Assembly: GCA_024256165.1 (NCBI GenBank)
Contig: JAKLZG010000064.1
Span: 1 to 34,084 of the forward strand
DNA length: 34,084 bases
Direction: 5' to 3'
Source of the DNA: Candidatus Methylarchaceae archaeon HK02M2
GTDB lineage: Archaea > Thermoproteota > Nitrososphaeria > Nitrososphaerales > JACAEJ01
A program made the translations under genes and the position numbers. Positions 1 through 25,623 of the stretch are shown one piece after another. Numbering within the stretch: position 1 is the first letter of the stretch; every line of letters begins with the position of its first letter. The notes under the pieces are model-generated. The model was not told the DNA's origin. It worked only from the letters and a program-made list of their open reading frames with translations, and ran no database searches.

Positions 1-392
1 TAGGTGAAACGGTGATCGCTGAACTTCATGAAAACGGTGAGATTACTACTAATACGATTATGCCAGAGGATTTAGGAATTAAAAATGCAAATGAATGCGA
101 CCTTCTTCCCGCTTCGAATAGAAAAGAGGAAGCATTGAACTTCCTGAGAATATTAAGTGGCAAGGATCGAGGATCGAAGAGCGAGATGGTATGTTTAAAC
201 ACTGCCCCTATTCTCTATATGATGGGTCAAGCCAAGGATATCAAAGAGGGATTGAACATAGCAAGAGAGACGATAGAAACTGGTCAGGCAATCATCAAGT
301 TGAAAGAATGGGTAAGGCAGCAAAATTCAGAACCTGAATTTGGTGAGAAGAAATTTAATAATCTAGTAGGGCAAATCGGCCTCTCTTTATAA
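1..392 (+). CDS. trpD: Anthranilate phosphoribosyltransferase, C-terminal part (5' end outside window)
   Basis: The reading frame is open from the window edge (first full codon at base 3), so this is the 3' end of a longer gene. TrpD transfers the phosphoribosyl group of PRPP to anthranilate in tryptophan synthesis. What is visible matches the C-terminal lobe of the family: a Pro-Glu-Asp-Leu-Gly segment near base 73, a short region ending in an arginine- and lysine-rich loop, then the pattern LNTAPILYMMGQAKDIKEG followed by a helix ARETIETGQAIIKL, which is the usual TrpD ending. About 25 extra residues follow that helix. The PRPP-binding glycine loop would lie outside the window and cannot be checked. 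The GTG at base 12 is an internal codon, not a start. A related phosphorylase-fold enzyme is the only other option. Confidence 0.85.
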   Translation, partial: GETVIAELHENGEITTNTIMPEDLGIKNANECDLLPASNRKEEALNFLRILSGKDRGSKSEMVCLNTAPILYMMGQAKDIKEGLNIARETIETGQAIIKLKEWVRQQNSEPEFGEKKFNNLVGQIGLSL

Positions 393-683: not shown

Positions 684-707
684 AATGTATTACAATTGTA
701 ATACATT
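684..707. promoter_or_regulatory. 24-base perfect palindrome upstream of cobT-like gene
   Basis: The half AATGTATTACAA is followed directly by its exact reverse complement. It ends about ten bases before the TATA-like element at 717-724. The right half's first nine bases, TTGTAATAC, recur at 2391-2399 in the promoter of the nearby XRE regulator. A perfect palindrome of this length is unlikely by chance even in A+T-rich DNA and is a strong operator candidate. Confidence 0.65.
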
Positions 708-774
708 AAATAAGATTTATATGGTTGGATGATCCATCCGTATATTTGATCTCAATTATAAAGAGTTGATATAT

Positions 775-1899
775 ATGATCACTGATCTAAGATATGTAAG
801 TGTGATTGGAGATGATGCTAAAGCATCCAGATTTATCAATAATCTGAAAGGGAAAGAACCAGTCTTCATCTGTACTATGTCGAACACTATGACTGCACTA
901 GTTCCGGGAATAACAGTAGCTGGTGCAAATCCTGAGTTGATAAAGTATACACCTCCGGCAGATGTAGAGCTCGTTTATTACGGTGAATGTAAATGCATTC
1001 CTGTAGTTCCAGCAACACCTGATGGAAAACCTACACCAGCAATAATAACTATGAGTGCTCTAAAGCTTGCAGAAATCCCTTTCTTCGTCGTCGAAGCTGG
1101 TTGTGAAGTAAAGCCTTACACCCCATATTTCTCACTCAATATACCAAGTCCTGGGGATAACATACAGACAGGTAGAGCTCTTGATAGAGATGTGGTTGAA
1201 AAGGCTATTGATTACGCAGAGCTTATTGGTAGAAATTTTTCCTATCTAGCTGATTACTTGGTTCTTGGAGAAACCCTGCCAGGTGGAACAACTACCGCTT
1301 TGGGCGTCTTGATGGGACTTGGTATAGATGCAAGGGGAAAGGTGAGTAGTAGCATGCCTGATAATCCCCATGAAATCAAGAATAAAGTTGTTGAGGAGGG
1401 AATGAGGGCAGCTGGCATTCAAATAGGTGATTTAAGAAACGACCCACTTGGGGCAATCGCAACCCTTGGAGATCCTATGATGATAAGTGTTGTAGGGATG
1501 GCTTTAGGCGCAGCGCCGAAAGTTCCAGTGATCTTAGCTGGTGGTACACAGATGACTGCGGTTTTGGCATTGATAAGCAGAATAAGACCCGAAATCTTAA
1601 GCAATATTGCCATAGGAACAACGAAATATATAGTCGAAGACCCAACATCAAGCATACAATGGTTGGTCAATCAATCAGCAAACATACCTATCTTTGGTGC
1701 AGATCCAGGACTTGGAAAGTCTAAAAAAGAAGGTCTCAGGGCTTTTGGATCTGGATTCGTGAGAGAAGGTGTAGGTGCTGGTGGTGCAACTTTATCAGCT
1801 ATGCTTAAGTCTAAGGGAGAAATTACCACCGATATAATAAAAGCAGAAATTGAGAGAAATTATGAGAAGGTAGTCGAGTCTAGGTTAAGAGAAAGTTAA
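775..1899 (+). CDS. cobT: Archaeal CobT-like nicotinate-nucleotide:base phosphoribosyltransferase (TIGR00303/UPF0284 family)
   Basis: The archaeal CobT family is linked to activation of the lower-ligand base of cobalamin by transfer of phosphoribose from nicotinate mononucleotide. The sequence shows the family's features: an opening strand followed by FICTMSNT, a central GETLPGGTTTALGVLMGLG glycine-rich segment, then ILAGGTQMTAVLAL, and a closing GFVREGVGAGGATLSAML. Length (about 375 residues) is normal for the family. An in-frame TTG lies at 766, but ATG at 775 is preferred because GAGTTGAT at 763-770 resembles an archaeal SD four bases upstream. It stands alone on its strand, with the XRE regulator converging 26 bases downstream. 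Regulation by the palindromes upstream is likely. The exact base it activates cannot be read from sequence. Confidence 0.85.
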   Translation: MITDLRYVSVIGDDAKASRFINNLKGKEPVFICTMSNTMTALVPGITVAGANPELIKYTPPADVELVYYGECKCIPVVPATPDGKPTPAIITMSALKLAEIPFFVVEAGCEVKPYTPYFSLNIPSPGDNIQTGRALDRDVVEKAIDYAELIGRNFSYLADYLVLGETLPGGTTTALGVLMGLGIDARGKVSSSMPDNPHEIKNKVVEEGMRAAGIQIGDLRNDPLGAIATLGDPMMISVVGMALGAAPKVPVILAGGTQMTAVLALISRIRPEILSNIAIGTTKYIVEDPTSSIQWLVNQSANIPIFGADPGLGKSKKEGLRAFGSGFVREGVGAGGATLSAMLKSKGEITTDIIKAEIERNYEKVVESRLRES

Positions 1900-12656: not shown

Positions 12657-12891
12657 CTCTATCCAACATAGGATAATAATGACATTATTATATTTAGATC
12701 GTTTTGTTATATTGGAAAAGGTTTAATGGATTTATCCAGAAAACTGTGTAGGTTATACCTCTAGGTTATACTTATACATATTTCTTAAACCTAAAGGAAT
12801 GTTTATAATGGGTCTCAGGAACTAGTATCACGTAGGTTATGCTTTTATCTTCTATAACTACACCTTTACCTATTTTGGTGAAAAGTAACTT
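12657..12891. promoter_or_regulatory. Divergent control region between nadK and the pur operon
   Basis: Holds direct repeats TAGGTTATAC at 12749-12758 and 12762-12771, a variant TAGGTTATGC at 12833-12842, and an inverted AAACCTA at 12787-12793. Possible TATA-like sequences are GTTTATAATG (12801-12810) and CTTTTATC (12842-12849). GGTGA at 12879-12883 is a clear SD eight bases before the purS ATG. The repeats are the best operator candidates for the purine genes in this window. Confidence 0.5.
12749..12771 (+). repeat. Tandem TAGGTTATAC repeats before purS
   Basis: Two identical 10-base units start 13 bases apart; a third with one change is at 12833-12842. I did not find this decamer in the leaders of purD, purM or prs. 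Confidence 0.6.
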
Positions 12892-17508: not shown

Positions 17509-18822
17509 TTGGCTGGAATATTCGGATTCTATGCTTTTGGTGATGAAAGGGTAAACTGGGATTCATCCAAGTTCATCTACTATGGATTGAGTGCCCTCCA
17601 GGGGAGGGGTCAAGAGTCGACAAGCTTGGTTATCTACACTCATCATGATAATACTGAACCGCTAAGATGGATTTCTGGTGAGGGTCTTGTAGATGAAGTA
17701 TTTGGAAAAATAAAGCAAGATTATATGAAGGGTTTTCTAGGGATAGGGCAAGTGTCTGCTGAGAAAAGAGACTATGCCATAAAGGTAGAGAAGCCCATAG
17801 AACTTGCATTGGTGGGAGATGGAAAACCAGCATTACACGATAACAGGCAGAAATCCTTCCAGATATTTGCTGAGATGCTATCTAAGAAAATATCTGAACT
17901 GAGAGACCCCTTAGAGGCTACTAAAACATTGATAAGAGAGGTGGGAGGTGGCTACTCTTTTATAACCCTAACAAAGGATGAGAAAATGATCTGTGGAAGG
18001 GACATTCAAGGAATAAAACCATTGGAAGTTGGGGCCATAGGTTTCGATATTGGTGCAGTAGCATCTGAAAGCTCAGCCCTTGATGTAATTGGGGCAGAAC
18101 AATCAGGTTTTGTAAAACCAGGAGAAACAGTCATGTTCGATCCTTTGAGTATAGAGAAAAGACACATTAAAAATAAGACAGCTTACTGCAGTTTTGAGTA
18201 TGTCTATCTAGCAAGGCTTGACTCATATTTGAACTCGATCTCTGTTAGCAATGTTAGAGATATGATAGGTCAAAGGTTGTCAGAGGAGAATCCTGTCAAA
18301 GCTGAAGTTGTTATAGGCGTTCCCAATACAGCCATACCTTTCTCTATGTCATATTCAAAGAATAGCGGAATTCCAGTAAAGTACGGATTCACTAGGACAG
18401 GAAGGCATGTAAGAAGCGCAATAAAGCCCAGCCAATTTGATAGGATAGTTGGAGTTCAGTTGAAGTTGAACCCAATACGGACGTCTGTTGACGGTAAAGA
18501 AATAATTCTGATCGACGATAGCGTTGTAAGGGGAAATACTCTAAGAAGCACTGTCTATAATCTAAAGAGAAAGGGCGCAAAAAAAGTTCATGTAAGGATA
18601 GGTAGCCCTCCTTTAATATCAAGATGTCCATTCGGAACAGAAGTTCCTCCAGAAGATGAATTGATAGGTAAAGCCTTATCGAACGATGAGATTGCTGAGA
18701 TTATAGGCGCAGACAGTTTTGCCTATCTTTCTATCGATGGGCTATGTGAATCTATAGGTTTACCCGAATCCTCCCTTTGCTTGGGTTGCTTTACAGGAAA
18801 ATATCCTGAGAGGCCTACATGA
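17509..18822 (+). CDS. PurF paralog without glutaminase catalytic residues
   Basis: A 437-residue relative of PurF directly after purF. The start TTG (17509) gives MAGIFGFYAFG: alanine stands where the catalytic cysteine should be. No in-frame upstream start exists because TGA lies at 17497. Other glutamine-site motifs are gone too: HVRYST becomes QVSAEK and HNG becomes GDG. The PRPP loop is intact (EIILIDDSVVRGNTLRST), as is QLKLNPIRTSVDGK. The Fe-S cysteines remain (YCSFEYVYLA, SRCPFG, SLCLGC). AGGAGATG precedes the start at SD distance. It could be an ammonia-dependent transferase, a regulatory partner of PurF, or bind PRPP as a sensor. Its intact frame and tight spacing argue against decay. 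Confidence 0.9.
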   Translation: MAGIFGFYAFGDERVNWDSSKFIYYGLSALQGRGQESTSLVIYTHHDNTEPLRWISGEGLVDEVFGKIKQDYMKGFLGIGQVSAEKRDYAIKVEKPIELALVGDGKPALHDNRQKSFQIFAEMLSKKISELRDPLEATKTLIREVGGGYSFITLTKDEKMICGRDIQGIKPLEVGAIGFDIGAVASESSALDVIGAEQSGFVKPGETVMFDPLSIEKRHIKNKTAYCSFEYVYLARLDSYLNSISVSNVRDMIGQRLSEENPVKAEVVIGVPNTAIPFSMSYSKNSGIPVKYGFTRTGRHVRSAIKPSQFDRIVGVQLKLNPIRTSVDGKEIILIDDSVVRGNTLRSTVYNLKRKGAKKVHVRIGSPPLISRCPFGTEVPPEDELIGKALSNDEIAEIIGADSFAYLSIDGLCESIGLPESSLCLGCFTGKYPERPT

Positions 18823-23603: not shown

Positions 23604-24626
23604 TCACTCTATCAACCTCATCTTCCGCACTTCCAAGAGTTTCCTAGCAATTTCATCAAAATTCAGTTCATTGATTTTCGCAACTTTTTTAACCATCTCC
23701 TTAGGAAAAGCCTCGATCCCTTTAAATGCCCCTCCAATCCCGCCTACTATCGATGCTATTGTGTCTGCATCCCCGCCTATGTTTGTTGCCATTATTATAG
23801 CATCCATCGGCTCTCCATAAGTAGCAGCAAATACTCCAAATGCTGTTGGCACAGCTTCATTAGAAGCTATTCCAGCACCGACATAATTGTAAAGGTAATC
23901 TATAACTTCTATAGGACTCTTAGCATGTGAAACCAAATTTATAGCCAGCTCTATTCTTTTATCTACAGGAGCAGCTGGATATAGACTTCCAAACTGAGCA
24001 CCAAGCCTTGCACCTCTTATTCCAGCCTCGATGATATCGTCAATACTACAATTTCCTTTGATTGCCTTAGAGATCGAACATGCTACAGCTGAGGCAGCCG
24101 AGATAGCTACATCAGTATTGTGAGTGAACGCACATGATTTCGCCACATCTTTTACTATTTCGTGTAAATTTGAACCCGCATCGACAATTCCTACTGGAGA
24201 CACTCTCATAGCTGCACCATTTGTAGCCCCTAATCCAGAGACATACTTAATATCGACTCCTCTTGCCACCTTCTCTAAAGCTGCTCTCGTGCTAGGTCCC
24301 AATAATCTCTTTGCAGAAGCACCGCATTTAACACTCCACTCCCATAATCGCTGTGCAAAACCTTCTGATGAGATATATTGATCATTTATCAATGCATCTG
24401 CTAAGACCAATGTTATTTGGGTATCATCGGTAACATGCCCAGCCTTTAACCCATCATGGACTATGTGCCCTTTAGGTGCATCGAAAAAACTTATTACCTT
24501 TCCAAACTTTTCACTTATCTGTTCTGGTGTGTACCCAGATGTAGGCATCCCCATGGAATCTCCGATCGCTACGCCTGCCAAGCATCCAACTGACCTTGAA
24601 AGTATCAATTCATAATCTGTAGTCAT
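23604..24626 (-). CDS. ADP-ribosylglycohydrolase (DraG family)
   Basis: A hydrolase of about 340 residues that removes ADP-ribose from proteins or small molecules. The metal sites of the family are clear: GVAIGDSMGMPT near the start, HVTDDTQITLVLADAL, and the C-terminal ATNIGGDADTIASIVGGIGGA. The start is taken at ATG 24626 (MTTDYELILSRSVGCLAG); the frame extends upstream to 24785 but would then overlap the divergent gene and add about 53 residues unlike the family. A TATA-like stretch at 24651-24663 is correctly placed for this start. The neighbours are an RHH/PurM-like gene and a CinA-Nudix gene. Some DraG relatives act on ADP-ribosylated DNA or nucleotides, so its target is open. Confidence 0.92.
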   Translation of the reverse strand: MTTDYELILSRSVGCLAGVAIGDSMGMPTSGYTPEQISEKFGKVISFFDAPKGHIVHDGLKAGHVTDDTQITLVLADALINDQYISSEGFAQRLWEWSVKCGASAKRLLGPSTRAALEKVARGVDIKYVSGLGATNGAAMRVSPVGIVDAGSNLHEIVKDVAKSCAFTHNTDVAISAASAVACSISKAIKGNCSIDDIIEAGIRGARLGAQFGSLYPAAPVDKRIELAINLVSHAKSPIEVIDYLYNYVGAGIASNEAVPTAFGVFAATYGEPMDAIIMATNIGGDADTIASIVGGIGGAFKGIEAFPKEMVKKVAKINELNFDEIARKLLEVRKMRLIE

Positions 24627-24690
24627 TCTCAATCCGTAACTTAGACCAAGAGTATTATAAGTAATTAATCTAATAATAATTCGTTCAAAA
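24627..24690. promoter_or_regulatory. Compact bidirectional promoter
   Basis: Only 64 bases separate the two start codons. The A/T box TATTATAAGTA (24653-24663) is nearly symmetric and lies about 32 bases from each start, fitting leaderless or very short-leader transcripts both ways. Confidence 0.5.
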
Positions 24691-25623
24691 TTGAGTAGCC
24701 CGATAAATGTAAGGCTTCCTGAAAAGATAGTAAGAGAACTTGATGGATTAGCCAACGAGTATGAGTTAAGTAGATCAGAAATCATACGTCAAGCTTTAAC
24801 TTTTTATCTAACTATGCTAAAAAGTATAGGAAGTATAGTACGCCCTACGATATTTAAAGTAACGCCTTCACAAGTAGTCTTGATGAAAAGGGGAGATGTG
24901 TCACTTTTAAAGCTACCGACTGGCTTGATTTTAACCTTAAGCTATACATCATCAGGTGGTATAGGCTCGAAACCAATGGATAAGGTAAAGGTGGATTGTT
25001 TTACATTAGGTCGTTTCATGACCAGGTTAGTCCTTATGGATACCATTGCGATAAATTCGTGGCCAAGGCTAATTGTAGTGACATTGAGCGTTGAGATGAC
25101 CCCCACAGGTATCAATATATTAGAAGGTGTAAAGAATGAGTTAAAAAAAATAGGACTCGATCCAGAACAGTCGATAAGCGTAAATACAGAGGAGAATGTA
25201 ATTACCGATCAGACAGGTCTAGGTTTAATGGCTTTGGGACTTGTCCATGAAGATGAGCTGAGAATGGGGCGAACTCAGCCTAACGATGTCCTTATAATAA
25301 TAGGTAATCCAAAGATTGGAGAAGAAGTCCTACAAGCTGAGAGAGAAGGAAAGATAGCAGACCTTCAAGAGATCCTTAGGTTGCTTCAACTTGATTTTGT
25401 TCACGATGTAATTCCTGTCGATACTCAAGGCATAGCCTACGAAGCAAGGATGATAACCCAATTAGTCGGGCGTCAAGTTAAGTTTTATGATGGTGTTGGA
25501 ATAGACTTAGAAAAACCAGCAGGTCCTGCTACAGCAATATTGGTTACTGTGGATGGAGCACAGATCGAAAGACTTGCACAGATTATTAGAAAGCCAATAA
25601 CGACCATCGGTAAAGTTATGTAA
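24691..25623 (+). CDS. Ribbon-helix-helix DNA-binding domain fused to PurM/AIR-synthase-like domain
   Basis: A 310-residue fusion. Residues about 4-42 are a ribbon-helix-helix (CopG/MetJ-type) domain: INVRLPEKIVRELDGLA then LSRSEIIRQALTFYL. From about residue 55 the chain resembles the PurM/ThiL/SelD/HypE superfamily: SSGGIGSKPMDKVKVD corresponds to the PurM GVGTK loop, MDTIAINSWPRLIVVTLS to the metal strand, and LRMGRTQPNDVLIIIGNPKIGEEVL to the second lobe. The end (GPATAILVTVDGAQIERLAQ) is not typical of PurM itself. It starts with TTG in a probably leaderless transcript. Position near the pur block suggests a regulator sensing a purine intermediate or ATP, but this is inference. A kinase fused to a DNA-binding domain is the alternative. 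Confidence 0.85.
   Translation: MSSPINVRLPEKIVRELDGLANEYELSRSEIIRQALTFYLTMLKSIGSIVRPTIFKVTPSQVVLMKRGDVSLLKLPTGLILTLSYTSSGGIGSKPMDKVKVDCFTLGRFMTRLVLMDTIAINSWPRLIVVTLSVEMTPTGINILEGVKNELKKIGLDPEQSISVNTEENVITDQTGLGLMALGLVHEDELRMGRTQPNDVLIIIGNPKIGEEVLQAEREGKIADLQEILRLLQLDFVHDVIPVDTQGIAYEARMITQLVGRQVKFYDGVGIDLEKPAGPATAILVTVDGAQIERLAQIIRKPITTIGKVM

Follow-up and report, generated by a model that had tools for sequence, protein, structure and literature searches.

What does a protein sense and control when it joins a DNA-binding domain to a PurM-like domain and is encoded beside the purine genes of an archaeon? The question is raised by an open reading frame in contig JAKLZG010000064.1 of Candidatus Methylarchaceae archaeon HK02M2 (the 34,084 nucleotides analysed are called the window here), which the first-pass annotation took for a possible purine regulator. 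The reading frame was confirmed at exactly 24691-25623 on the forward strand, encoding 310 amino acids from a TTG start, and a comparison of relatives showed that the start of the fusion, TTGAGTAGCCC, is kept across them. The features of the gene are as follows.

24691..25623, + strand: RHH-CblS fusion, 310 aa, proposed regulator of cobamide lower-ligand salvage
24703..24813, + strand: ribbon-helix-helix (RHH) DNA-binding domain, residues 5-41 (Pfam and phmmer)
24874..25620, + strand: CblS-like domain of the PurM superfamily, residues 62-310 (BLASTP; AIRS matches of relatives)
24645..24661, + strand: conserved block ACCAAGAGTATTATAAG 5' of the gene, probably its promoter (a similar block was seen in each of the six family f1 members compared)

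The two domains of the fused protein

The N-terminal RHH domain noticed earlier was borne out by Pfam, in which residues 5-40 matched RHH_1 (PF01402, CopG/MetJ type) above the cut-off with an E-value of 4.7e-10. A phmmer comparison also aligned residues 5-41 of the window protein with the EndoAI antitoxin (4me7, E 0.0066). Beyond the RHH domain, the window protein has no Pfam match above the cut-off and no AIRS hit of its own. AIRS (PF00586) was matched above the cut-off by two relatives, a fused one with 41% identity to the window protein (E 1.5e-5) and a stand-alone one (E 8.3e-6), in agreement with the PurM-like layout that had been read from the letters. The full-length fusion is kept in 5 of 6 relatives of the window's family (f1), at 73-86% identity, and a scan of the genome contigs with the window protein returned a single near relative. 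AlphaFold, supplied with only two sequences, modelled the fused protein with a pLDDT of 34, too low for the model to be used.

The identity of the second domain came from BLASTP. In a single comparison, the window protein aligned with a Listeria CblS homologue, whose gene adjoins cobU-cobS-cobC, at 31% identity over 230 amino acids (E 2e-30), and the homology to bacterial CblS runs through the whole CblS-like domain. The window protein is also homologous to a Lactiplantibacillus plasmid CblS, the copy contained in an operon named CblT-CblS-CobS-CobC (PMC6722938). A passage of PMC6461909 cites Gray and Escalante-Semerena 2010 for the alpha-ribazole kinase CblS of Listeria innocua. One archaeal relative, G011, carries both the fusion and a stand-alone copy, the latter directly behind an ECF-type S component; the stand-alone protein matches proteins of Listeria, the Lactobacillus group and Cytobacillus at about 30% identity. 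In the records of the bacterial homologues, cobS, other cobalamin genes or an ECF S component adjoin the gene. Because of the alignment to the Listeria protein and the cobalamin gene context of the homologues, we identify the second domain from sequence as CblS, the alpha-ribazole kinase that acts in salvage of the cobamide (vitamin B12) lower ligand, and not as PurM or PurL.

Comparison with PurM, ThiL, SelD and CblS had been proposed at the outset. The profile of the fused family matched PurM weakly (probability 13%) and that of stand-alone CblS matched it with a probability of 59% (P 9.4e-5). When profiles of solved structures were searched, CblS returned only a weak match to PurM (FGAM cyclo-ligase) beside a repeat-protein artefact, and nothing was found for the fused family.

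The fused clade and its gene neighbours

A survey of 398 genomes from the phylum placed most full-length fusions in families f25 and f47 and a single one in f59; f1 and f6 have the fusion as well. In a tree of 48 CblS domains, one branch with support of 100/100 splits 28 fused from 20 stand-alone sequences, and the fused ones form a single clade from five archaeal families. The two groups differ at residues 68, 86 and 117, as counted on 19 stand-alone sequences at residues 86 and 68 (one of the 20 is truncated at 86) and on all 20 at residue 117.

24946..24948, + strand: codon 86, Thr replacing the Asp conserved in stand-alone CblS (residue count; aligns with PurM D64)

Residue 86 is Asp in 19/19 scorable stand-alone proteins and Thr or Ser in 28/28 fused ones, which all lack the loop Asp. 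Residue 68 changes from Arg (19/19) to Gly (27/28), and residue 117 from Glu (20/20) to Asp (27/28). In the profile alignment, residue 86 lies opposite D64 of the SDGVGTK loop of PurM and residue 117 opposite the Asp of the ND motif. Most other residues conserved in CblS are kept in the fusion, including D69, K94, D97, E167, Q174, G205, P207, E251, G278, and P279. The loss of the loop Asp suggests that catalysis was lost and ligand binding kept, so that the domain would serve as a sensor and not as a kinase, a reading that is based on this one position plus the Glu-to-Asp change at 117. The retained residues (D69, K94, D97 and others) would also suit a bifunctional protein in which the RHH regulator keeps its alpha-ribazole kinase activity, on the model of RbkR, which has been described as both regulator and enzyme (PMC8305020), and family f1 yielded no stand-alone CblS. 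We regard such a protein as unlikely, given the change at residue 86 in all 28 fused proteins and at residue 117 in 27 of them; moreover, a fused enzyme would be redundant where a stand-alone CblS coexists with the fusion, as in G011, f47 and several f25 genomes.

Gene order connects both forms of CblS with cobamide metabolism. It was read from mechanical ORFs in the relatives, labelled by BLAST against a small reference set, with Pfam/NCBIfam for selected members only. For the stand-alone archaeal cblS, 16 complete loci were read (a seventeenth, cut at its 5' end, was left out): in 14 of them the gene immediately 5' was called as cblT, and in the remaining two (G613 and G569) only an antisense ORF was called and cblT was read by eye. 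In four loci (L080, L082, L083, and L087), cobS and a CbiS-type gene lie close by. Divergent pairs of the fusion with cblT-cblS, cblT or cobT are present in G011, G006, G501, G603, G509, G466, G631, G478, G683, and G674, the partner being cblT-cblS in G011, G683, G674 and four f47 genomes, cblT alone in G006 and G501, and cobT in G603. G613 and G569 join this set if the antisense ORF there is taken as cblT. A corrinoid adenosyltransferase gene abuts the end of the fusion in five family members; none was found in the window genome, which also has no match to ECF_trnsprt (PF12822), the profile for the CblT-type partner. In nine f25 loci the fusion adjoins coenzyme A synthesis genes and an S component, with no cobamide gene adjacent. 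G001 is without the fusion, cobT and cobA, all three together, which may reflect gene loss or an incomplete assembly.

In the window, the gene divergent from the fusion is of another kind.

23604..24626, - strand: ADP-ribosylglycohydrolase-family gene, start inferred at 24626 (PF03747, 1e-61)

The same family appears in the G006 operon divergent from the fusion (L027:8477-13499), which comprises cblT, an ECF ATPase, EcfT, an ADP-ribosylglycohydrolase and a PfkB kinase, a pairing of the last two that recalls E. coli yegUV. The ADP-ribosylglycohydrolase may supply CobT by splitting alpha-ribazole into its base and ribose. A NicO-type nickel/cobalt transporter gene is divergent from the fusion in G713 (L073:6645-7397).

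A one-component regulator reading ATP or an AIR/FGAM-like intermediate had been proposed for the window protein. The general architecture stands, an RHH domain with a PurM-superfamily sensor, probably for a small ribonucleoside or its phosphate. The purine intermediates find no support, given that the sensor is CblS and that the neighbours across families are cblT, cblS, cobT and the corrinoid adenosyltransferase gene.

A shared palindrome and its promoter context

The divergent intergenic regions share an 18-bp palindrome, GTATTACNNNNGTAATAC, with the predicted operator form GTATTAC-N4-GTAATAC. Nine sites, each beside a fusion gene (L060, L061, L067, L068, L071, L077, L088, G011, and G006), were used to train a symmetric matrix. 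Two of them, L060 and L077, have the same sequence. The L060 site lies between the fusion and the divergent cobT of G603, and in several of the other loci it is cblT that shares the site with the fusion. None of the nine comes from the window, and family f1 contributed only the G006 one, shared with cblT. When the window was scanned, the top site was found at 687-704 with a score of 26.6 (shuffles: mean 13.9, maximum 20.2), and three trials with random 1.34-Mb sequence gave a best score of 18.0. The site is also the sole exact copy of GTATTACNNNNGTAATAC in the 1.34-Mb genome, and it precedes cobT.

12..392, + strand: TrpD-like phosphoribosyltransferase, C-terminal piece (PF00591, 1.7e-13)
687..704, no strand: predicted operator GTATTACAATTGTAATAC, perfect palindrome before cobT (top matrix score, 26.6)
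717..722, + strand: TATA-like element of cobT, starting 12 nt past the operator (fixed spacing in the target set)
766..1899, + strand: cobT, archaeal nicotinate-mononucleotide-dependent phosphoribosyltransferase, predicted target (TIGR00303, 398 bits against a cut-off of 240); the start is perhaps the ATG at 775

The association with cobT holds across the family. All six f1 members with the fusion carry a site scoring 22.8-26.6 before cobT or before an operon that has cobT as its last gene; for G002 this strong site (25.2) precedes the ADH-TrpD pair and a weaker one (18.3) lies directly before SSS-cobT. Gene order in G002 and G003 places the ADH-TrpD pair behind an operator of the same kind. 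Of 61 relatives, only two contain the symmetric pattern GYAYTACNNNNGTARTRC; each has the fusion, and in each the pattern stands at a cobT operon. In 22 fusion-bearing genomes of other families there are 19 exact matches to GTATTACNNNNGTARTRY, and 18 of them, as assigned by eye and unblinded, lie at RHH-CblS, cobT, a small membrane protein gene or the ADH-TrpD pair; 8 of these 18 are training sites or near-identical copies, which leaves an independent count of 10/11. The small membrane protein is 58% identical to one encoded after cobT in G603. Pattern searches allowing one or two mismatches returned about as many matches as the reversed-pattern control, and the analysis was therefore confined to exact or high-scoring sites. 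No high-scoring site was detected by the matrix scan near cblT in stand-alone cblTS loci without the fusion.

Several further observations were made around these sites. A zinc alcohol dehydrogenase and TrpD-like pair stands behind an operator in two distant families (L188:3070-5264, L149, and L150). In G554 (L152:4040), a gene follows a strong site (25.0) that keeps the 12-nt distance to TATA; the relative of this gene in G669 (L154:2550-3824) matches the CbpB family of peptide-modifying radical SAM proteins. In the window, three perfect copies of a second palindrome, TTTCCATATGGAAA, lie at 538-551, 556-569 and 588-601, after the TrpD-like gene and before the cobT operator. The genome has no further exact copy and six relatives lack it; the three may provide a second input to cobT.

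The palindrome also lies at the promoter of RHH-CblS itself in f25, f47 and f6, being strong in 16 of 21 loci outside f1 and weak in f59; the matrix scan found no strong site at the fusion promoter of L074, L075 and L078. Within f1, the fusion's own promoter is without the palindrome in 5 of 6 members, the window included, and the link between protein and site in the window genome therefore rests on relatives, mostly of other families. Another factor could bind the palindrome, RHH-CblS having other targets; an XRE-type regulator gene (1926-2366) adjoins cobT in the window and likewise in G002, G003, G004, and G005. This is improbable in view of the palindromes at the RHH-CblS promoters of f25, f47 and f6, where no XRE gene is found among the three nearest neighbours of the fusion genes.

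The same scan bears on the purine genes. Tandem decamers before purS had been put forward as the target, and TAGGTTATAC is indeed present there at 12749, 12762 and, with one mismatch, 12833. With up to one mismatch, the window holds 4 matches against a chance mean of 2.4, which is near chance, and three cluster before purS. The decamers are absent before purS in G002, of the same genus, and in G003, and the region upstream of purS contains no operator site, its best matrix match (11.6) lying below the shuffle mean. The expected co-occurrence with pur genes extends to some f1 members: they adjoin the fusion in the window, G002 and G003, which together with the PurM-superfamily fold is what speaks for a purine regulator acting on the repeats. 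In other families the fusion lies elsewhere, beside cobamide genes, and the sensor is CblS. Regulation of purine genes was rejected on these grounds, the unconserved repeats and the missing site before purS in particular, and we consider it very improbable. Directly after purF lies a second PurF-like gene (17509-18822), 36% identical in product, with similar genes in G002 and G003; the protein starts MAGIFGF, without the N-terminal Cys of MREKCGVIG.

The position of the palindrome relative to the promoter is nearly invariant. Of 26 target promoters, 24 have a TTWWAT element that begins exactly 12 nt past the palindrome and 25 have one that begins within 10-13 nt, compared with a mean of 0.34 and a maximum of 3 in 2000 rounds of shuffled downstream sequence; the 26 promoters were picked for the presence of a site, and common descent links some of them, so that their independence is overstated. 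For cobT, a TATA box on the upstream side of the operator (about 668-675) had been considered and was dropped, as the promoter set showed the conserved TATA downstream. At the fusion's own promoters in other families, the TATA-like element lies upstream of the palindrome, which covers the likely start site, and in divergent pairs both TATA-like elements can be the same DNA on opposite strands.

The fixed distance from the TATA-like element suggests activation, and from the spacing alone we infer that activation is somewhat more probable than repression. A protein that simply represses every target until its ligand releases it, blocking TFB/TBP by binding beside BRE/TATA, is a plausible alternative to which we give rather less than even weight. 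The site ends about 12 nt before the TATA, a bound RHH tetramer could cover the BRE, and many archaeal one-component regulators repress. The near-invariant spacing fits contact-dependent activation better than a steric block. At the fusion's own promoter in other families, the palindrome over the start site suggests autorepression.

The proposed regulator and known systems

We propose that the fusion of an RHH domain to a copy of CblS yielded a one-component transcription regulator in which the CblS sensor and the RHH domain control cobamide genes through the palindrome, and we hold this with good confidence; cobT would be, with the same assurance, a gene that it regulates. The CblS part would sense alpha-ribazole or alpha-ribazole-phosphate, with or without ATP, rather than catalyse; a ligand of this kind is reasonably likely, judged from the sequence relationships. 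RHH dimers would bind GTATTAC-N4-GTAATAC before cobT, cblT, the SSS transporter-cobT operon, the ADH-TrpD pair and the small membrane protein gene, the target in the window being cobT. At these promoters the palindrome, just upstream of the TFB/TBP region, would lead to activation; at the own promoter in other families, downstream of the TATA and over the start site, it would lead to autorepression. Site position would thus set a dual role, with cobT, cblT and transport genes activated and the regulator itself repressed. The full combination is more tentative, somewhat short of an even chance: a catalytically dead kinase copy with an RHH domain that senses the B12 lower ligand, activates through basal factors at 12 nt, represses itself, and governs a regulon including unrecognised lower-ligand enzymes. 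Candidates for the latter, as part of the same tentative reading, are the ADH-TrpD pair and the ADP-ribosylglycohydrolase with its PfkB kinase, an alpha-ribazole cleavage route.

A candidate regulator, sensor, operator and targets are now named for an archaeal phylum. If the proposal is true, a salvage kinase has become the sensor for the pathway to which it belongs, and unassigned genes of lower-ligand metabolism can be approached through the operator. A literature search, mainly of openly accessible papers, found no paper joining AIR synthase, ribbon-helix-helix and archaea.

The closest known protein is CblS of Listeria, Geobacillus and Lactobacillus, with its partner CblT, to which the whole CblS-like domain is homologous at 31% identity. 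The fusion differs in its N-terminal RHH domain, in Thr/Ser for Asp86, in forming a separate clade and in being placed as a divergent regulator and not inside the operon. The genes for the archaeal stand-alone relatives lie directly behind cblT and at several loci beside cobS or other cobamide genes. Bacteria commonly control B12 genes by riboswitch, and an archaeal CBL-box was reportedly proposed in 2003 for a hypothetical B12 regulator. NikR, in which an RHH domain is followed by a C-terminal nickel-binding ACT sensor domain, shares the order of RHH and sensor with the fusion and differs in having ACT in place of CblS; regulators of the NikR/CopG type bind palindromes.

The archaeal thiamine regulator ThiR has a sensor related to thiamine-phosphate synthase. 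Like the fusion, it joins a DNA-binding domain to a relative of a vitamin biosynthesis enzyme, and it differs in domains and vitamin. ThiR is named in PMC10746257, where CblR, a predicted cobalamin regulon of Pyrococcus furiosus, is also found, with the regulator listed as unknown. CblR likewise concerns an archaeal regulator of cobalamin genes; it belongs to another phylum and is set beside the fusion by description only. RbkR is a bifunctional archaeal riboflavin regulator and kinase, whose N-terminal HTH domain is missing from an enzyme-only relative (PMC8305020). In both RbkR and the fusion, a DNA-binding domain is joined to a relative of a vitamin kinase of its own pathway, and the predicted sites of the fusion precede genes of that same pathway (cobT, cblT, and linked operons). 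RbkR differs in combining HTH with riboflavin kinase for riboflavin, against RHH with a PurM-fold CblS for a cobamide, and it keeps its catalysis, which RHH-CblS has probably lost.
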